64,000 bases of DNA from Acidovorax sp. 106 (GTDB taxonomy: Bacteria; Pseudomonadota; Gammaproteobacteria; Burkholderiales; Burkholderiaceae_C), in assembly GCF_003663825.1 (NCBI RefSeq), contig NZ_RCCC01000001.1, positions 1,992,501-2,056,500 of the forward strand, in the 5' to 3' direction. How positions within the stretch are numbered: the first letter of the stretch is position 1; each line of letters opens with the position of its first letter. The translations under genes were made by a program, and so were the position numbers. The notes under the pieces are model-generated. The model searched no databases and was not told where the DNA came from. It was given only the letters and a program-made list of their open reading frames with translations. Of this stretch, positions 24,444 through 34,758 are shown in pieces.

Positions 24444-24767
24444 TCAGCGCACCCAGGGCATCAGCACCGCGAGCCAGCGCGGGCGCCAGCTCAACGTAAA
24501 TGCCACGGCCAGCGCGCTGGCGGCCAAGCCCATCACCCACACCAGCGCGGCCATCGAGGCATGGTCCACCGCCAGGCACAGCGCCAGCGAGGTGGCCAGG
24601 CCCGCTGCGCCCAGCAGGCGCAGCGCGCGTACGGTGCGTGCGCTGCGGGCGGGCAGTGGGGCGGTGCCGCGCACCTGCTCCCAGTGGGTTTCCATGGCCA
24701 GGGCCAGCCAGGCCATGCCCAACACACTGGCCGCCAGGGCTGCGGCAAACATCACGGCATCAGGCAT
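24444..24767 (-). CDS. DUF3325 family small membrane protein
   Basis: 107 residues from MPDAVMFAAALAASVLGMAW; three hydrophobic helices (about 2-22, 48-66 and 72-92). Its ATG overlaps the stop of the PepSY gene (ATGCCTGA), so translation is probably coupled. Proteins of this kind are found beside PepSY and DUF3649 genes in iron-uptake clusters of Pseudomonas and Burkholderiales. Precise function unknown; probably an accessory to the PepSY membrane protein. Confidence 0.72.
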   Translation of the reverse strand: MPDAVMFAAALAASVLGMAWLALAMETHWEQVRGTAPLPARSARTVRALRLLGAAGLATSLALCLAVDHASMAALVWVMGLAASALAVAFTLSWRPRWLAVLMPWVR

Positions 24768-26460
24768 GGACGGTCTCCGTCGTGTTGGCACTCATCGTTG
24801 TTGAGCGGGCCGGGGTGGCCGGTGCGCCTTGCGCACGCTGGGTGAGCTTGCGCGCCGCGAGCAGGGCCACGGCCGCGCCAGCCAAGATGAACAGGTCCAC
24901 GCCCGCCACGGGCCAGTAGCCCGCGCCCAGGGTCTTGATGAGGTGGTCGCCTGTAGTCACCCAGTTCAGCACCACGGCGCACACGGCCAGCCCGGCAATG
25001 GCCCAGCACTGCTCGCGCCACGCGGGTGACATGCGGCCCTGCGCCACCGGCGCACTGCGCCAAAAGGCGTGGCCCAGCGCCAGCGCCCAGGTGGCCCAGA
25101 AGGCGTATTGCTCCAGGCTGCCACGGTTGGGCCAGCCAGCGGGCACCGCGTCAGGCAGCAATCGGTTGGCAATCAAAATGCCCAGCGCGGCCAGCACCAT
25201 GCCGGTGACGGTGGTGGTGGCCAGCGCGTCCACCGCGCGGGCGCCCTGGCTGCTTTGCTTGGCGTGTTGCTTCTTGCGCTTTTCCACAAAGAACACAAAG
25301 CCCGTGGCAATGCACACGCAGCCCATCAGCCCGCCCAGCACATACATCCAGCGCAGCAGCCAGTGCCTGAAGTGCTGCAGGTGCAGCCCGGTGAGGAACT
25401 CGTTGACGCTGTTGACGGCGCTGTGCGGCGGGTCTTCGCGCAGCAGCGCGCCCGTGCTGGCTTTGAAGTGGATGCCGTTGCCCACCAGCGCAATGCGGTC
25501 GGTGCCTGCGCGGTACACGCTCACGTAGCCATTGGCATCGCCCACATGCTGCAACGCCAAAAAGCCCACATCGCCCGCCATGCCCTGCGCAGCCCAGCGG
25601 CGCTGGGCTTCGGCCACCATCGCATCGACCGAGGCCAGCGGTGCGGGCACGCCAGCGCGCTCGTGCGGCAGGCCCGTCTCGGCGGCTTCGAGCTTTTCGT
25701 GCAGCTCGTGCAGCGGGTTGAGCTGCGTGTGCGCCACCGGGAAGTAAACGCCCGCAAAAATCACCAGCCCGGTGAAGGCAAAGAAGAAGTGAAACGGCAG
25801 CGCCAGCACGCCCGTCATGTTGTGCAGATCGAGCGCGCTGCGCTGCGTGCTCTTTTTGGGGCGGAAGGTGAAAAACTCGCGGAAGAACTTGCGGTGCATG
25901 ACCACGCCGCTGACCAGTGCCACCAGCATCATCAGCGCCGCAAAGCCCACGATCCAGGTGCCCAGGTTGTACCAATTCAGGTTCAGGCTGTAGTGCAGCG
26001 GGTAGAAGAACTGGCTGCCCACCTTGAGCCGGTCGTCAGGCAGCGATGCGCCGGTGCGTGGGTCGATGGTGCGCTGGCCCCAGGCCACGTCGTCGTGGTC
26101 CTTGATGCCAGGCGGCTCGTGGGCAGTAAACAGGCTCAGCACCGGGTCGCGGTGGGTGGTGTAGGCACCCATGCGCTGCATGGTCTCAAACCGCTCGGGC
26201 ATGGGCAGGCCGGTTTTGGCGCGCAGGGCCTCCACGCTCTCGGGCGTGGGCTGCATGCTGTCAAACACTGGGCGCAGCACCTTGTCGAACGAGGGCATGG
26301 GCTGCGGCGCAAAGCGCGACTGCGGAATGGCCCAGCGGTCGATCTCGCGGTCGAACACCGACAGTGCACCAAAGAAGAACACCACCATCAACACAAACCC
26401 GAGCGCCAGCCCGAACCAGGTGTGCAGCCAGGTCAGCGCCTGGCGAGCGTTTTGAAACAT
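24760..26460 (-). CDS. PepSY-associated TM helix (iron-uptake) membrane protein
   Basis: 566 residues from MFQNARQALTWLHTWFGLALG; GGGAG precedes this start. Helix 1 is at about 13-35, a large periplasmic region carries PepSY-type sequence, further helices appear around 200-225 and 250-275 (LALPFHFFFAFTGLVIFAGVYFP), then 390-420, with two to four more near the C-terminus. This family is often found with TonB-dependent siderophore receptors and is thought to reduce or move ferric siderophore at the inner membrane. It sits between DUF3649 (14 bases upstream) and DUF3325 (overlapping), forming a three-gene unit. Confidence 0.85.
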   Translation of the reverse strand: MFQNARQALTWLHTWFGLALGFVLMVVFFFGALSVFDREIDRWAIPQSRFAPQPMPSFDKVLRPVFDSMQPTPESVEALRAKTGLPMPERFETMQRMGAYTTHRDPVLSLFTAHEPPGIKDHDDVAWGQRTIDPRTGASLPDDRLKVGSQFFYPLHYSLNLNWYNLGTWIVGFAALMMLVALVSGVVMHRKFFREFFTFRPKKSTQRSALDLHNMTGVLALPFHFFFAFTGLVIFAGVYFPVAHTQLNPLHELHEKLEAAETGLPHERAGVPAPLASVDAMVAEAQRRWAAQGMAGDVGFLALQHVGDANGYVSVYRAGTDRIALVGNGIHFKASTGALLREDPPHSAVNSVNEFLTGLHLQHFRHWLLRWMYVLGGLMGCVCIATGFVFFVEKRKKQHAKQSSQGARAVDALATTTVTGMVLAALGILIANRLLPDAVPAGWPNRGSLEQYAFWATWALALGHAFWRSAPVAQGRMSPAWREQCWAIAGLAVCAVVLNWVTTGDHLIKTLGAGYWPVAGVDLFILAGAAVALLAARKLTQRAQGAPATPARSTTMSANTTETVHA

Positions 26461-26474
26461 CGTGATCTCCCTGA

Positions 26475-26777
26475 TCAGACCAAAGTCATCTGCAGCAGCG
26501 ACGCTGCACCCGCCATCAGCGCCGCTCCGCCCGCCAGCACCGCCCAAGCGCGCGCCAAGCTGCGGGTCGCAAAGGCCCAGCAAAACACCGTGACGTACAG
26601 CAAAAAGGCCAGCATGGCGCACAGGTGCTCTGCGTCGTGGAACGACATGCCCAGCGCAAACAGGCCGGCCATGCCCAGGGCCACAAAGCCCCAGCAAAAG
26701 GCGTAGCCCCCCAGCACGGCGGCCGCAATGCGCAGCAGCACATGTCTGCGAGGGTTGGAAAGAGTTCCGGTGCTCAT
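26475..26777 (-). CDS. DUF3649 family small membrane protein
   Basis: 100 residues with three helices (about 15-37, 42-66 and 76-96). It matches the DUF3649 pattern, including the GGYAFCWGFVALG stretch. It is the first gene of the PepSY/DUF3325 unit and has a Fur-like box about 27 bases upstream of its ATG, which points to iron control. Biochemical role unknown. Confidence 0.72.
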   Translation of the reverse strand: MSTGTLSNPRRHVLLRIAAAVLGGYAFCWGFVALGMAGLFALGMSFHDAEHLCAMLAFLLYVTVFCWAFATRSLARAWAVLAGGAALMAGAASLLQMTLV

Positions 26778-26803
26778 GGTGTGGGTCAGCGGGTGAAAAT
26801 TAA

Positions 26804-26818
26804 TGAGAATGATTAGCG
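26804..26818. promoter_or_regulatory. Fur-box-like site upstream of DUF3649-PepSY-DUF3325
   Basis: TGAGAAT-G-ATTAGCG matches 11 of 14 positions of the 7-1-7 Fur consensus TGATAAT-N-ATTATCA. It sits in an AT-rich patch (about 26797-26830) just upstream of the first gene. Confidence 0.6.
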
Positions 26819-27006: not shown

Positions 27007-27119
27007 TATGGCTCCCTCTCCCCTCGTGGGAGAGGGTTGGGGAGAGGGGGCCTGCATAAGCGCCGCGCCCGTTTCACCCCTCTCCCCGGCCCTCTCCCGC
27101 AAGGGGAGAGGGTGTGAGA
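27007..27119. repeat. paired CCCTCTCCCC inverted-repeat element
   Basis: Two head-to-head hairpin units (27012-27050 and 27076-27119), each made of CCCTCTCCC and GGGAGAGGG arms; the second is nearly the reverse complement of the first. Such elements are common between genes in Xanthomonas, Burkholderia and relatives and give rise to false peptides of the LPNPLPRGER kind. The stretches 26830-27006 and 27120-27239 on either side hold nothing else that could be recognised. Confidence 0.75.
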
Positions 27120-27239: not shown

Positions 27240-29621
27240 TCAGAACCGGTACGTCATGCTCAGGTTGACACTGCGCGGCGCCCCCCAGGTGTAGGTGCTG
27301 TACCAGCTGAAGATGGTGTAGTACTTCTTGTCCAGTACGTTGTTCACCGTGACCGACGCCGACAGCTGTTTGCTGAAGTCGTAGCGCGCCATCAGGTCCA
27401 CCAGCCAGTAGCCCTTGACGGTGTGCTGCATGGTGCCGCCACTGGGGGTGCTGATGTCGCCCCAGGTCTTGTCCTGCCAGCGCGTGCCGCCGCCCAGTGT
27501 CAGGCCCGCCAGGCTGCCGCTGAGTTTGTAGCTGGTGTACAGGCTGAATTGGTTGGACGGCGTGAGCGTGGACTCCCGCTTGCCCTGGTTGTGGGACACG
27601 CTGTGCGACAGGCCTGCCTGCAGTTGCCAGGCGGGGGTGATCTGGCCCGACACCTCCAGCTCCCAGCCGCGCGTTTTCATGCCTTGCACGGCGCGGTAGG
27701 CCGTGCCGCCGCTGGGCGTCTTGCCGCCGCTTTCCACGCCAAAGTTGTCTTGCTCCAGCTTGAACACGGCGACAGAGGCATTCATGCGCCCGTCCAGCAA
27801 GGCCATCTTGGCACCCAGCTCGTAGTTCTTGCCACGCAGCGGGTCGAGCGTGCGGCCTTGAACGTCTTGCAACGACTGCGGCGTGAAGATGCCGGTGTAG
27901 CTGGCGTACAGCGAATAGGTGTCGTTCAGGTTGACCACCGTGCCCAGGTAGGGCACCAGCACGCCCGACTCGCGCTGTCCAGCCTCTCGGTTGGTGTAGC
28001 GGGACCAGCGCCCGCCGGTGATCAGCTTCCAGTCGCTGGCCAGGTTCCAGCGCGCGGCGGCGTACAGGCCGCGCTCGCGGGTGGTTTCGTCGTCGGTGTC
28101 TTCTGGGGTCGCGTTCCAGGCAGGGGCTGGCACATTGCCCGCCCAGTGATAGTAGTCATATACGTCGAGGTCGTAGCCATTGCCCTCCCACCAGGCCTTG
28201 CTCTTCCAGCGGCGGTTGGCGATGCTGCCGCCCAGCACCAGTTCGTGCTCGCGCCCCGCCAGCTCAAACGGGCCGCTGGCATACACATCGCCCGCGTTGC
28301 TGGTGGTGCGGCCAATGTACTGGCCCGCCCACATGCTCACACCGGTGCCGGTGGCTGGATCGGGGAAACCGCTGGCTGCTGCGCCCAGGTTGGCGTTGTA
28401 GCCGTTGATCTGGTGGTTGAACTGCGCCTTGGCCACCCAGCCGTTGTCAAACGTGTGCTCCAGCGTGGCAAAGCCGGTGCGGGTGTACTGGTCCCAATGG
28501 CTCCAGCGTGCGCCGTTGTTGAAGTCGCGTGGCATCCGGTTGAAGTCGCCCTGCGCGTTGAGCAGCGGAATGCCGCCCCAGGTCGATCCCTCGGGGCTGT
28601 TGTTTTGCGCATCCATCCCCAGGGTCAGTAGCGTGCGCGGGGCCAGGTCGGCCTCCAGCACACCGTAGAACACGCCGGTCTGGCGCTGGTAGTGGTCCAG
28701 ATGGCTTTTGCCGTCCTGGTAGGCGGCCACGCCCCGTGCGCGCACGCTGCCGCTTTCGTTGACGGGGCCGCTCAGGTCCAGCTCACTGCGGTACTGGCTC
28801 CAGCGGCCCGCGCTGGCCGTGACGTGCCCTTGAAAGTCGCGCGTGGGCTTTTTGCGCACCAGGTTGATGGTGGCGCCCGGCGTGCCGCTGCCCGTGAGCA
28901 GACCGGTGGCGCCCTTGAGCACCTCCACGCGGTCGTACATCACCATGTCGCTGAGCGTGTTGCCCGCCGAGTAAGACGAGTCGCGCATCATCGGAATGCC
29001 GTCGTACTGAAAGTTTTGTATGGCAAAGCCGCGTGCGTAGTACTCGGTGCGCTCGCTGTCATAGGTCACCGTGCTCACGCCGGGCGTGTGGGCCATCACC
29101 TGGTCGATAGAGGTGAGCTGAAAGTCGTCCATCTTCTGGCGCGTGACCACGCTGACGGACTGGGGCGTCTCGCGCGGGGTCAGCACCAAGCGCGTGGCCG
29201 TGGCGATAGCGCCCGGCGTGTACGAGCCCGAGTGCTCGGTCACCTCTCCCAGTTGGTTGGACACCACGGTGACCTCCGACAGGGTTTTGGTTTCGGCGGC
29301 GATGCGCGCCACCGTCACCGTGCCATTGCCCACCCTGCCAGACAGCCCCGAGCCTTGCAGCAGCGCATCCAGCGCCTGCTGCACATCACGTGTGCCCTGC
29401 ACAGCTGGTGCTTGGCGGCCCTGCGCCAGCGAGGGAGAGAAGACCAACTGCAGCTGGGCTTGCCGGGCCAGCTGCTCCAGCGCCGTGGCCAGCGGCTGGG
29501 CGGCAATGTCAAAACGGGTTGGCTGTGCGGATGCCACCTGCACCTGCATGGCCAGCGCCAAGCCCGACAGGGCCAGCACCAGCGTGCGTGGGCGGGAAGC
29601 GTGAAACTTGGAAACCTGCAT
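27240..29621 (-). CDS. TonB-dependent siderophore receptor with STN signalling domain
   Basis: 793 residues from MQVSKFHASRPRTLVLALSGL, with AAGGA seven bases before the ATG. A signal peptide ends near ASA-QPTRFD; the STN domain (about 35-105, ALEQLARQAQLQLVFSPSLAQG) is the periplasmic module used in surface signalling to a FecR-type protein; the plug starts near residue 140 (TPRETPQSVSVVTRQKMDDF) and the 22-strand barrel ends with the terminal Phe of MTYRF. It resembles the FpvA/FoxA/FhuE class of ferric-siderophore receptors. The sigma/anti-sigma hybrid gene lies upstream on the same strand, 217 bases away. Ligand unknown. Confidence 0.92.
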   Translation of the reverse strand: MQVSKFHASRPRTLVLALSGLALAMQVQVASAQPTRFDIAAQPLATALEQLARQAQLQLVFSPSLAQGRQAPAVQGTRDVQQALDALLQGSGLSGRVGNGTVTVARIAAETKTLSEVTVVSNQLGEVTEHSGSYTPGAIATATRLVLTPRETPQSVSVVTRQKMDDFQLTSIDQVMAHTPGVSTVTYDSERTEYYARGFAIQNFQYDGIPMMRDSSYSAGNTLSDMVMYDRVEVLKGATGLLTGSGTPGATINLVRKKPTRDFQGHVTASAGRWSQYRSELDLSGPVNESGSVRARGVAAYQDGKSHLDHYQRQTGVFYGVLEADLAPRTLLTLGMDAQNNSPEGSTWGGIPLLNAQGDFNRMPRDFNNGARWSHWDQYTRTGFATLEHTFDNGWVAKAQFNHQINGYNANLGAAASGFPDPATGTGVSMWAGQYIGRTTSNAGDVYASGPFELAGREHELVLGGSIANRRWKSKAWWEGNGYDLDVYDYYHWAGNVPAPAWNATPEDTDDETTRERGLYAAARWNLASDWKLITGGRWSRYTNREAGQRESGVLVPYLGTVVNLNDTYSLYASYTGIFTPQSLQDVQGRTLDPLRGKNYELGAKMALLDGRMNASVAVFKLEQDNFGVESGGKTPSGGTAYRAVQGMKTRGWELEVSGQITPAWQLQAGLSHSVSHNQGKRESTLTPSNQFSLYTSYKLSGSLAGLTLGGGTRWQDKTWGDISTPSGGTMQHTVKGYWLVDLMARYDFSKQLSASVTVNNVLDKKYYTIFSWYSTYTWGAPRSVNLSMTYRF

Positions 29622-29673: not shown

Positions 29674-29838
29674 CTCTGCGGCTGAGCCCGTGGGTGGCCT
29701 GTGCTCCAGCGCACGGGTTTGCAGCCGTCTGTGTGTTTGACGGATGGCGTTGCAAAACCCTGAAAAAAATCTGAAGAAAGCCGCGCAACGCCTGTGCGCG
29801 TGCGCTGCGGCGTAAGCCACGAAGGGCTTTGGGCGGGT

Positions 29839-31212
29839 TCAGGCAGGGGCGCCTGTCGCCATCTCTACGCGCATGCCGCCGTCGCCTTGGGGGTGCAGCC
29901 GCACGGGCAGCGCCTGGGGCAGTGCGCGCAGCCAGGCCTGCGCGTTGGCAATGCGCACCAGCCCGCTCACGGGCAAATGGGCTGCCGCACCCGTGGCCGA
30001 CAAGTGCGCGGGCGAATAGCGCTGCAGCCGCTCCAGCGCCTGGCCCAGGGGCGTGTCGGTAAATACCAGCTCGCCCCGGCGCCAGGGGGCGACGGCATCG
30101 GTGGCCAGCTCGCGCCGCGCCAGCCCATCGGGCGCAATGCGCAGGGCTTCGTCAGCAACCAAGACTTCGGCAGCCCAGCCTGGGCCGGGCTGCACCTGCA
30201 CACGGCCCGATTCCACCTGCACCAGCACGCCACCGGTGCCGGGCAGGCGCTCCACCCCAAAGCGCGTGCCCAGCACCGTCACGCGCACGGGCCCGGCATC
30301 GACCACAAAGGGGCGTTCGGCATCGCGCGTCACTGCAAAAAATGCGGCGCCCTCGTGCAGCGCTACCGTGCGCGTGCGGGCGGTGAGCGTGACCGAGGTG
30401 TGGCTCAAGGCGTCCAATTGCAGCGTGCTGCCGTCAGGCAAGGTATAGCGCGGCAACTGCCCGCGTCCACTGCGCTGTGCGGCTTGCCACTGGGCGGCAT
30501 CCGCACGCTGCGCTTGCCACAGCTGCCAGGCCAGCGTGCCGCTGCAGCCCAGCCCGGCCAGGCCCAGCAGGGCCGTCAGGCTGCGCCGCCGGTGCATTGC
30601 GCGACCTGTAGCGTTGGCACTGGTCGCTCCGGCACCTGCGGGGGGCGATCCGCGCCAGCGGTGCAAGGCGTCCTCCACGCAGGCGTGGGCCAGCATCAGG
30701 TCGCGCTCTACAGTGTTCAGCGCCACGCCCAGGCGCAGTGCAATGTCGGCCTGCGCCTCGCCATGCACCCGGTGCGCCACAAAGGCCGTGCGGGCGCGTT
30801 CGGGCAGCGTGGCCAGCGCCTGCTCCAGCGCCTGCAGGGCCTGGCGGTACATCAGGTGCTCGGCCGCATCGGGCACCCGCCGCGGCGACTGGTGCTGGCG
30901 CGTGGCAGCGTCGTACAGATAGTCCGCCTGCAGTCGGTCTTTGCGGTGCTGGTCCATGGCCAGGTGCTGGGCCAGCGTGGTCAGGTAGGCGGTCGGGTTG
31001 CGCAGCGCCTGGGGCGGTGCGCCCTGCGGCGCGTCTGCCATCGGGGCAGGCATGCCACGCTTCTGCTCGGCCAGCCGCACCCAGGCGTCATGCACCAGAT
31101 CGCGTGCGGTTTCCGCACAGCCGGTGCTGCGCCGCGCCACCCGCAGCAGGTGCGCATACGCCGGTTCAAACTCGTTGAGCAGCGACTGCGTGAAGCGGGC
31201 GGGCAGGGACAT
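29839..31212 (-). CDS. ECF sigma factor / FecR-like anti-sigma hybrid protein (IutY-type)
   Basis: One uninterrupted 457-residue frame. Residues 14-95 are sigma region 2 (FEPAYAHLLRVARRS, ARDLVHDAWVRLAEQ) and 122-186 region 4 (LPERARTAFVAHRVHG, IALRLGVALNTVERDLM), as in FecI. A linker of about 25 residues leads to a membrane helix (212-232) and a FecR-type periplasmic domain (about 255-345: LPDGSTLQLDALS, RPFVVDAGPVRVTVLGTRFGV) with an STN-like C-terminal part. The Gly-Thr at 315-316 matches the site where FecR-type proteins self-cleave. The usual cytoplasmic anti-sigma domain of FecR (DUF4880) has no room and appears absent. IutY of Pseudomonas putida has this layout and is freed by Prc and RseP. 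A Fur-like palindrome lies upstream, the likely receptor downstream. Confidence 0.88.
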   Translation of the reverse strand: MSLPARFTQSLLNEFEPAYAHLLRVARRSTGCAETARDLVHDAWVRLAEQKRGMPAPMADAPQGAPPQALRNPTAYLTTLAQHLAMDQHRKDRLQADYLYDAATRQHQSPRRVPDAAEHLMYRQALQALEQALATLPERARTAFVAHRVHGEAQADIALRLGVALNTVERDLMLAHACVEDALHRWRGSPPAGAGATSANATGRAMHRRRSLTALLGLAGLGCSGTLAWQLWQAQRADAAQWQAAQRSGRGQLPRYTLPDGSTLQLDALSHTSVTLTARTRTVALHEGAAFFAVTRDAERPFVVDAGPVRVTVLGTRFGVERLPGTGGVLVQVESGRVQVQPGPGWAAEVLVADEALRIAPDGLARRELATDAVAPWRRGELVFTDTPLGQALERLQRYSPAHLSATGAAAHLPVSGLVRIANAQAWLRALPQALPVRLHPQGDGGMRVEMATGAPA

Positions 31213-31235: not shown

Positions 31236-31254
31236 AACAAGAATCATTCTTGTT
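31236..31254. promoter_or_regulatory. Fur-box-like palindrome upstream of the sigma hybrid
   Basis: AACAAGAAT-C-ATTCTTGTT, a perfect 9-1-9 inverted repeat with the GAATCATTC centre common in beta- and gammaproteobacterial Fur boxes. It is 24 bases from the hybrid's start codon. Confidence 0.7.
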
Positions 31255-31547
31255 CATTGGGCGTGCCGACGCCTTGCTCGGGTGCGGTGTTCGCCCGGAC
31301 ACTCACCTGCGCGAGCGCTTGCATCTGGTGCTGGTCAGATGCCGCTGCAGCCCGAAAATTTCAGCTCAAATTGGCCGCCATGGAGCATGGAGATTGCGCA
31401 AGATGCTATTGATTTTGTAGTGAGTGTGCAGCCGTGGCTGGCGCAAGGTGCAGGGGTTGGTGCGGGCTTGCTGCCATGGCGCATGCCGTAGCGGCTGCAA
31501 TGTCATACCGCCGCCCCTAACATCGCGGCCTCTGGAGACCCTTGCCT
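31255..31547. other. divergent intergenic region, no gene seen
   Basis: Between the sigma hybrid and the ABC exporter. Short open frames here lack coding character and Shine-Dalgarno sites. TGCTATTGATTTTGTAGTG at about 31402 may be a trace of the AGCTAT repeat. Confidence 0.4.
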
Positions 31548-33395
<1,848 letters not shown>

Positions 33396-33425
33396 GGCGC
33401 TGAAGTGCCCAGCGGGCAGTAGGGG

Positions 33426-33860
33426 CTAGCGTTCCAACTGCCCCCGCAACTGCTCCAGCAGTTCCATCAACTGGGCCTGCGCTGCGGCGGGCACGGGCTG
33501 GAGCAGGTCCGCAGCCACGGTGCTGCGGGCCTGGCGCACGGCGTTGAACAGGGCCTGGCCCTGGGGGCTCAGGTGCAGGCAGCGGCTGCGTTTGTCGTGC
33601 TCGTGCGGGGCGCATTGCAGCCAGCCTTTGTCCAGCAGCAGGGCCACCAGGCGGGCGATCTGGGCTTTGTCGGCGCTGGCGTGTTGCACCAGTTCTTTTT
33701 GCGTGGCGCCGGGGTGGCGCCCCACGAACATGAGGGCGCGCACCTCGTTGTGCGTCAGCTCGGGGTGGATGGAGGCCACCCCCTCCATCATGCGGGCGCG
33801 GTACACATGCACCAGGTCGTGCATGGCTTCAAAAATCTGGGCGGGGCGGTTCGTGGGCAT
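33426..33860 (-). CDS. MarR family transcriptional regulator
   Basis: 144 residues from MPTNRPAQIFEAMHDL; an ATG 11 codons upstream (33893) is possible but would put the operator palindrome inside the gene, and neither start has a clear Shine-Dalgarno. The winged helix includes LTHNEVRALMFVGRHPG, ATQKELVQHASADKAQIARLVALL and a wing at HEHDKRSRCLHLSPQG. It is divergent from the siderophore-interacting protein gene and shares a 51-base palindromic region with it, so autoregulation and control of that gene are likely. It converges on the ABC exporter, 30 bases away. Confidence 0.86.
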   Translation of the reverse strand: MPTNRPAQIFEAMHDLVHVYRARMMEGVASIHPELTHNEVRALMFVGRHPGATQKELVQHASADKAQIARLVALLLDKGWLQCAPHEHDKRSRCLHLSPQGQALFNAVRQARSTVAADLLQPVPAAAQAQLMELLEQLRGQLER

Positions 33861-33867
33861 AGTTTTG

Positions 33868-33918
33868 TTGTTGACAAAGTCAACCAAATGCATGATATTT
33901 GGTTGACTTAATCAACAA
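33868..33918. promoter_or_regulatory. large palindromic operator between marR-type gene and SIP gene
   Basis: Arms 33868-33889 and 33897-33918 are inverted repeats with 20 of 22 bases matching (TTGTTGA..AAGTCAACCAAAT), separated by 7 bases. Inside each arm is TTGAC/GTCAA symmetry. The size and position fit a double MarR operator covering both divergent promoters. Confidence 0.7.
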
Positions 33919-33927
33919 TTTTAAATC

Positions 33928-34758
33928 GTGACCCAGCATTCTGATCCCTCTTTGACTCTATCGACTCCTGCCACCGCAGACGTGGTCGACCCTTTGGTCG
34001 TGCAGCGTGTGCGCCACCCCCTCAAGGGGCGGCATGTGCAGGTGGTGCGCCGTACGCAAATCAGCCCCGGCTTTGTGCGGCTGACGCTGGCAGGCCCCGA
34101 CATGGCCGATTTTGTGAGCGCCGGGTTTGACGACCATGTGAAACTCATCTTGCCCGCGCCGGGGCAAGAACGCGCGAGCCTGCCGCAGCTGGTGGACGGG
34201 CGGCCGCAGTTCAGCGAACCCCGCCCGGTGCTGCGCGACTACACACCCGCCCACTTTGATGCGGTGCAGGGCACGCTCGATATCGAGGTGGCCTTGCACG
34301 ATGCCGGCCCCGCATCAGACTGGGCGGCCGCTGTGCAGGTGGGCCAGTGGGCGGGCATTGCGGGGCCGCGCGGCAGCCTGGTGATCCCGGTGGGGTTTGA
34401 CTGGCACTGGCTGCTGGGCGATGAAACCGCGTTGCCCGCCATGGCCCGCCGCTTGGCCGAGCTACCCGCCGCCACCCGCGCCGTGGTGCGTGTGCAGCTG
34501 CGCAACCCGCAAGACCAGCGCACGTTGGCATCGGCAGCGCAGCTGGACGTGCAATGGGTGAATTCGCTGACCGAGGCTGCGCAGGCGCTGGCCGTGCCCG
34601 CAGGCACCGGCTACATCTGGGCGGCAGGCGAGCACCACGACATGGCCGCGCTGCGTGGCGTGCTGGCCTCCAAGCCGGGTGTGGACGCCAAGCGCATGCG
34701 CATCGCCGCGTACTGGAAGCGCGGCGAGGCCGACCACCACGAGAACCTGACGGCTTGA
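33928..34758 (+). CDS. siderophore-interacting protein (ferric-siderophore reductase family)
   Basis: 276 residues from GTG 33928. The N-terminal FAD-binding barrel includes GFVRLTLAGPDM and the flavin motif RDYTPAHF near residue 104; the C-terminal SIP domain ends with YIWAAGEHHDMAALRGVL and IAAYWKRGEADHHENL. Proteins of this family (ViuB, YqjH) reduce ferric siderophores in the cytoplasm with NAD(P)H, releasing iron. The gene has no evident Shine-Dalgarno and starts 10 bases after the palindromic operator, so it may be translated from a very short leader. Confidence 0.9.
   Translation: MTQHSDPSLTLSTPATADVVDPLVVQRVRHPLKGRHVQVVRRTQISPGFVRLTLAGPDMADFVSAGFDDHVKLILPAPGQERASLPQLVDGRPQFSEPRPVLRDYTPAHFDAVQGTLDIEVALHDAGPASDWAAAVQVGQWAGIAGPRGSLVIPVGFDWHWLLGDETALPAMARRLAELPAATRAVVRVQLRNPQDQRTLASAAQLDVQWVNSLTEAAQALAVPAGTGYIWAAGEHHDMAALRGVLASKPGVDAKRMRIAAYWKRGEADHHENLTA

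Follow-up and report, generated by a model that had tools for sequence, protein, structure and literature searches.

An IutY-like one-chain sigma-FecR regulator of Acidovorax sp. 106 belongs to a large clade of such fusions, in another host group than that of IutY

A gene in the stretch of Acidovorax sp. 106 DNA analysed here (the window; 64,000 nucleotides, contig NZ_RCCC01000001.1, positions 1,992,501 to 2,056,500) joins an ECF sigma factor and a FecR-like periplasmic domain in one chain, and raises the question of whether an iron sigma factor is kept silent by an anti-sigma domain or by mere anchoring. The initial annotation described a single frame of 457 residues with FecI-type sigma regions 2 and 4, a membrane helix, a FecR-type periplasmic domain and a Gly-Thr pair at the self-cleavage position. 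Each of these elements was found again: the open reading frame is intact, both sigma profiles (Sigma70_r2 and Sigma70_r4_2) and the FecR profile (residues 248-338) scored above their Pfam cut-offs, hydropathy and the AlphaFold model both placed a helix after the sigma part, and Gly-Thr is present at residues 315-316 of the translation. The gene and its parts are as follows.

29839..31212, minus strand: single-chain sigma-FecR fusion gene, 457 aa, ATG start (open reading frame, Pfam and homologues)
30889..31200, minus strand: sigma region 2, model residues 5-108, Sigma70_r2 at 20-48 (Pfam and AlphaFold model)
30652..30867, minus strand: sigma region 4, model residues 116-187, Sigma70_r4_2 at 127-175 (Pfam, AlphaFold model and structure matches)
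30592..30651, minus strand: disordered linker, residues 188-207, in the usual place of DUF4880 (AlphaFold model)
30586..30591, minus strand: invariant twin arginine R208-R209, Tat-like motif RRRSL (alignment and pattern search)
30526..30582, minus strand: membrane helix, residues 211-229 by hydropathy, 211-238 in the model at low confidence (hydropathy and AlphaFold)
30106..30489, minus strand: beta subdomain of the periplasmic FecR module, residues 242-369, resembling the CJM subdomain of PupR (Pfam and model)
30265..30270, minus strand: Gly315-Thr316, FoxR-type self-cleavage motif (sequence and alignment)
29860..30072, minus strand: C-terminal alpha/beta subdomain, residues about 381-451, like the PupR STN subdomain (AlphaFold model)

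The AlphaFold model has a mean pLDDT of 84.7 and a pTM of 0.53. In it the helices of the sigma part run to residue 187, a poorly defined stretch covers residues 191-220 (pLDDT 38-53), and the helix at 211-238 is weak (pLDDT 49-69); the hydropathy peak at 211-229, with a mean of 1.33, is only modestly hydrophobic. The top match of the model in the PDB was 6ovk_R, the cell-surface signalling domain of PupR (TM-score 0.84 on the length of the target), followed by three chains of a Parabacteroides anti-sigma factor and then by ECF sigma factors. Among 121 aligned rows, G315 is glycine in 120 and T316 is threonine in 119.

A sequencing error or frameshift behind the fusion was excluded because homologues are intact across both halves. 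The Pfam column, read by eye, marks both FecR and sigma region 4 in 119 of the 120 homologues listed out of 277, and 115 of the 121 rows in the alignment, which includes the query, reach 400 aa or more. This confirmed that the fusion architecture is real and that the gene is one intact frame.

The lack of DUF4880, also pointed out at the outset, held on closer search. The Pfam scan of the fusion gave no DUF4880 match at E<=1, with the FecR and sigma domains above cut-off, and the DUF4880 profile run over the whole genome at E<=10 matched 13 places, none inside the fusion gene. A cryptic DUF4880 within the gene was rejected, as no match appeared there even at this threshold. The same genome carries six FecR domains by profile search, that of the fusion included; three FecR-domain genes have DUF4880 above cut-off and a fourth has a sub-threshold match (16.4 bits). 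For another FecR-domain gene (G000:C1:3182503-3182808, in a 623-residue open frame) no DUF4880 match was listed at E<=10. With FecI-FecR-FecA systems such as PupI-PupR-PupB and FoxI-FoxR-FoxA the fusion shares the sigma and FecR families, an STN receptor, likely Fur control and the GT motif. However, those are built from two regulatory proteins, the FecR usually with a DUF4880 anti-sigma tail, whereas the fusion is one protein and has no separate FecR with such a tail.

The fusion is an IutY-like one-chain cell-surface signalling regulator, of a kind already known through IutY, the sigma/anti-sigma hybrid of the aerobactin system of Pseudomonas putida, and the likeness proposed by the initial annotation holds. 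Like IutY, it has regions 2 and 4 of an ECF sigma factor at the N-terminus, a single membrane segment (here the weakly modelled helix) followed in the same chain by a FecR-type periplasmic half, and an adjoining receptor with an STN signalling domain. It differs in length (457 aa against 374 aa for IutY), in host group and in receptor type. According to passages of PMC5411451, IutY is made constitutive by changes at D210, R231, A240, F251, V253, W301 and L313/L317/L320. When these published positions were placed by constant offsets and residue identity rather than by sequence alignment, six of the nine had the same residue in the fusion at two offsets: F251 and V253 correspond to F318 and V320 (offset 67), and W301, L313, L317 and L320 to W377, L389, L393 and L396 (offset 76). 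At offset 67 D210, R231 and A240 fall on T277, A298 and G307, with no identity. In 115 full-length rows F318, V320, W377 and L389 are invariant; L393 is leucine in 95 and L396 in 90.

IutY is called unique in a passage of PMC5411451, and the relevant part of PMC8999054 describes it as the only one characterised for this mechanism. PMC8999054 also gives the extension to certain members of ECF243 only; therefore extended ECF243-type members other than IutY may already have been noted in print. In ECF48, ECF52, ECF53 and some ECF36 the sigma factor is likewise joined to a membrane-bound regulatory part, with proteolysis expected; these have other extensions and belong to Actinobacteria, and the passages of PMC8999054 on them do not name FecR. 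A search of Pseudomonadaceae, started from a genome found through DUF3509, listed no match spanning both halves, either in 248 genomes (E<=1e-38, up to 6 candidates per genome scored) or in 48 of them searched more deeply (E<=1e-45, up to 35 per genome), and IutY itself was not recovered.

A partner for the periplasmic half is encoded just downstream, as the initial annotation had stated, and Pfam identified STN, plug and barrel domains in it.

27240..29621, minus strand: TonB-dependent siderophore receptor with an STN signalling domain (Pfam; NCBIfam)

By NCBIfam the receptor is FauA/FhuE-like, below the equivalog cut-offs. A scan of named genomes returned 37 loci, 36 with a match across both halves of the fusion and one, from Bacteroidetes, with FecR only. 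The 36 loci come from Acidovorax, Comamonas, Delftia, Variovorax, Xylophilus, Pseudorhodoferax, Hydrogenophaga, Rhodoferax, Vandammella, Allofranklinella and unclassified assemblies; in two of them (L082 and L084) the open frame with the FecR half starts within the sigma half, perhaps owing to a frameshift. In 33 of the 36 a receptor homologue follows downstream at a distance of at most 600 bp and on the strand of the fusion; in L087 and L088 it lies at 1.4 and 1.9 kb, and none was found downstream of the fusion in L090. The alignment to the receptor starts ahead of the STN region in 34 of 35 cases, and the open frame in L093 covers only query residues 225-793.

Upstream of the fusion gene the palindrome reported earlier was found again; it is 19 bp long and starts 24 nt before the start codon.

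31236..31254: perfect 19-bp Fur-like palindrome AACAAGAATCATTCTTGTT (sequence scan)

It is the only match to AACAAGAATCATTCTTGTT in the window at up to 3 mismatches, with 0 expected from shuffles. Of 51 distinct upstream regions of fusions, that of the window among them, 17 contain the core GAATNATTC, against 0.4% of shuffles. Scored against a 19-bp Fur consensus, 19 of 52 upstream regions reached at least 13 (shuffles about 0.4%), and the window's own region matched at only 10 of 19 positions. The fusion gene is a candidate for control by Fur.

A second putative regulatory element lies between the fusion stop and the receptor start.

29739..29764, minus strand: promoter-like motif, TTCAGG (29764-29759), 16-nt spacer, CGTC (29742-29739) (pattern search)

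The motif, written as TTCAGG, 15-18 nt, and CGT or GGT plus C, A or T, was drawn up by eye on 37 regions, one from the window and 36 from the named loci, all of them among the 53 regions counted later. Of these 53 downstream regions 31 contain it, or 30 of 52 once a duplicate of the window is set aside, split as 26 of the 37 defining regions versus 4 of the 15 other distinct ones. First-order shuffles contained it in 0.4%, and real windows of the named loci in 45 of 3632 cases, a count that includes the sites themselves. The form TTTTCAGGN{15,18}CGTC occurs once in the window and in 0 of 100 shuffles, and the strict form TTTTTCAGGN{15,18}CGTC twice in the 4.9-Mb genome with 0 in the reversed control. 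The second strict copy (L170 1501-1528; G000:C1:3091831-3091858) lies where a frame of MOSC-like appearance, judged by eye, begins; the gene has no evident iron role, and the copy is either a chance occurrence or a second target. The motif as written is absent from 22 of the 53 regions, several of which show variants such as TGAGGGA with CGTT, or GGTCTTA. Groups of loci have variants of their own, TGAGGGA...CGTT and GTCTGCCC...GGTC, in their downstream regions (L119, L121, L126 and L129-L131; L068, L070, L072 and L082), and these group-specific forms suggest that promoter and sigma factor may have changed together. Such a motif allows each sigma factor to be tied to its target.

We consider it likely that the protein is a Fur-controlled, membrane-tethered sigma factor, that signalling by the receptor triggers its proteolysis, and that the freed sigma domain mainly transcribes the receptor gene. 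Under plentiful iron, Fur would repress the fusion gene. Once made, the sigma half would stay in the cytoplasm, tied by the floppy linker to the membrane helix, and the FecR half would probably be routed through the Tat pathway by the twin-arginine motif. As expected from its family, the periplasmic half would bind the STN domain of the receptor encoded next to it. Arrival of a loaded siderophore at this receptor would then set off stepwise proteolysis, by Prc and then RseP if cleavage of the Prc/RseP type known from analogous systems applies, and the freed sigma domain would read the receptor gene from its TTCAGG-N16-CGTC promoter. In this model the tether as such stands in for the DUF4880 anti-sigma domain, a replacement that would have evolved more than once.

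The sigma domain could instead be held off by an intramolecular anti-sigma contact, made by the tail with W186 or by the stretch between the sigma regions, the tether being incidental. In keeping with this, W186 is tryptophan in all 121 rows, and six residues of the stretch joining the sigma regions (P114, D115, A117, M121, Y122 and Q124) are each conserved in 97% or more of 115 rows. However, the linker is disordered in the model, and the distance from the sigma end to the twin arginine ranges over 10-46 residues (median 13) in 131 main-family relatives and over 2-20 in six separately arisen fusions, which moreover carry other tails. We regard such a contact as unlikely and favour silencing by the tether.

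The twin arginine bears on how the FecR half would cross the membrane. R208 and R209 are arginine in all 121 rows and never lysine, while position 210 is arginine in 94, lysine in 24 and another residue in 3; L212 is leucine throughout. The pair precedes the helix in all 50 distinct fusion loci, as read from the printed list; in a larger protein set it was found by pattern in 131 of 133, and the two misses have it on inspection. L212 stands at a position of the Tat consensus, and the serine of RRRSL stands where that consensus has phenylalanine. A twin-arginine motif thus stands before a moderately hydrophobic helix, as in Tat substrates, and the invariance of R208 and R209 beside the exchange of arginine and lysine at position 210 suggests an internal Tat signal. 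The genome has a gene for TatC, and E. coli FecR is cited in a passage of PMC11533796 as having an internal Tat signal, so Tat export of the fusion is likely. Through these twin arginines, a Tat step for a transcription factor can be put to a direct test.

Positive residues generally lie on the cytoplasmic side before a membrane helix (the positive-inside rule). The two arginines could therefore merely set the topology of a helix inserted by Sec/YidC alone. Two-gene FecRs in which no RR was found in a loose window (19 of 76 in one set, 16 of 113 in another) are consistent with this, as is one of the seven separately found fusions, the metagenomic P0146, which has RARWLPQAAAS before the helix and offers a natural contrast for the Tat idea; the other six have RR. 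Against it stand the strict conservation of R208, R209 and L212, the FecR of E. coli, and the low hydrophobicity of the fusion helix, whose median hydropathy is 1.47 in 49 fusions compared with 1.67 in 55 two-gene FecRs with RR and 2.07 in those without, values uncorrected for kinship. Insertion without Tat is a possible route that we tentatively rank behind the Tat signal. Since RR is common in two-gene FecRs (57 of 76 and 97 of 113 in the same two sets), most fusions have retained a trait widespread among FecRs although DUF4880 is missing from them.

An internal start at Met206 was also considered, by which a separate FecR fragment would be made and the halves would act as two proteins. Met206 precedes the twin arginine, and a protein begun there would open with a normal-looking Tat signal; yet position 206 is methionine in only 7 of 121 rows. 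This candidate was rejected because the residue is not conserved, and we give it almost no credence.

A survey of related genomes for the same fusion, proposed by the initial annotation, found it in relatives. Within the family of the window's host, matches at E<=1e-60 occurred in 28 of 399 genomes (own included) and 18 of 141 genera; two of the 28 (G702 and G762) have only the separately arisen type of L134/L135. In the genus, a match that extends over both halves was seen in 5 of 36 genomes, the own one among them; two of the genus genomes, G001 and G016, encode fusion proteins that from the sigma start onward are identical to those of loci named Acidovorax sp. sif1233 and sic0104. For 370 genomes of the class up to 4 candidates were scored in each, and among the matches listed only the own genome had one that spans both halves. 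Plasmid matches numbered 1563 records, and among the 30 listed one, from Diaphorobacter, has a single place that takes in 80% or more of the query. A search with L135 gave 344 matches, and the 120 listed include at least seven further fusion proteins (P0135-P0140 and P0146); IutY is not named among these 120. Five of these seven were scanned with Pfam, and none showed DUF4880 at E<=0.1. Two-gene FecRs among the matches listed are 44-59% identical to L135 over 48-73% of its length.

The concatenated tree comprised 62 rows, after near-copies had been thinned and five long-branch rows removed (115 to 67 to 62). The 28 main fusions group together (100/100), and three other fusions fall inside a ten-row clade (100/100) together with seven two-gene pairs. 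The Acidovorax fusion is part of a large clade of such fusions, in another host group than that of IutY. The seven two-gene members carry DUF4880, six above cut-off (including L002) and L022 at 21.3 bits against a cut-off of 25 bits. On this tree 4 changes are required, and supported branches force no fewer than 3 of them; none of 200 bootstrap trees needed just one. Holding all fusions as one clade was rejected (p-AU 0.0025), so the fusions do not form one lineage, and such fusions in Burkholderiales seem to have arisen more than once.

A single fusion event behind all sigma-FecR fusions, IutY included, with some of them split later, fits these results poorly. It draws on the sigma-only alignment, in which one clade was not quite rejected (AU p 0.051), and on the FecR-only alignment, in which the minor fusions as one clade were not rejected (p 0.097), so that fewer events with later splitting are conceivable inside the minor group. 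However, the FecR-only test of one clade gave p 0.037, the concatenated tree and its AU test given above speak against it, and every split gene would have to regain the DUF4880 carried by the seven two-gene members. We judge a single event very improbable. As the separate trees are weaker and the minor-fusion clade was not rejected, at least two origins, with later splitting allowed, are the safe minimum; the number rises to three or four on the assumption that a fusion, once formed, is not divided again with a return of DUF4880. A wider reading falls a little short of an even chance in our estimation: that the fusions arose at least three times in Burkholderiales besides IutY, each without DUF4880, so that membrane tethering alone can replace the anti-sigma factor, and that most are inserted by Tat through an internal signal that follows a folded sigma domain. 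The many relatives and the separate fusions without DUF4880 amount to a natural experiment on whether the silence of an iron sigma factor depends on an anti-sigma domain or on anchoring alone.

Several further features surround the locus. Divergently oriented genes at 31542-34755 encode an exporter-type ABC transporter, a MarR regulator and a siderophore-interacting FAD protein, possibly a set similar to IrtAB for import and reduction of ferri-siderophore. The set is not conserved: within 6 kb of the other fusions the ABC transporter was found in 1 of 36 loci, and the siderophore-interacting protein and MarR regulator in 0 of 36. Downstream of the receptor, 24763-26815 encodes a PepSY-TM protein and a 100-aa protein, preceded by the Fur-like sequence AATGAGAATGATTA at 26802-26815; PepSY homologues lie beyond the receptor in 8 of the 36 named fusion loci. 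Between the receptor and the PepSY genes, at 27014-27112, is a GC-rich inverted repeat with 36-nt arms (CCCTCTCCCC...GGGGAGAGGG, 89% complementary), which looks like an interspersed intergenic repeat.
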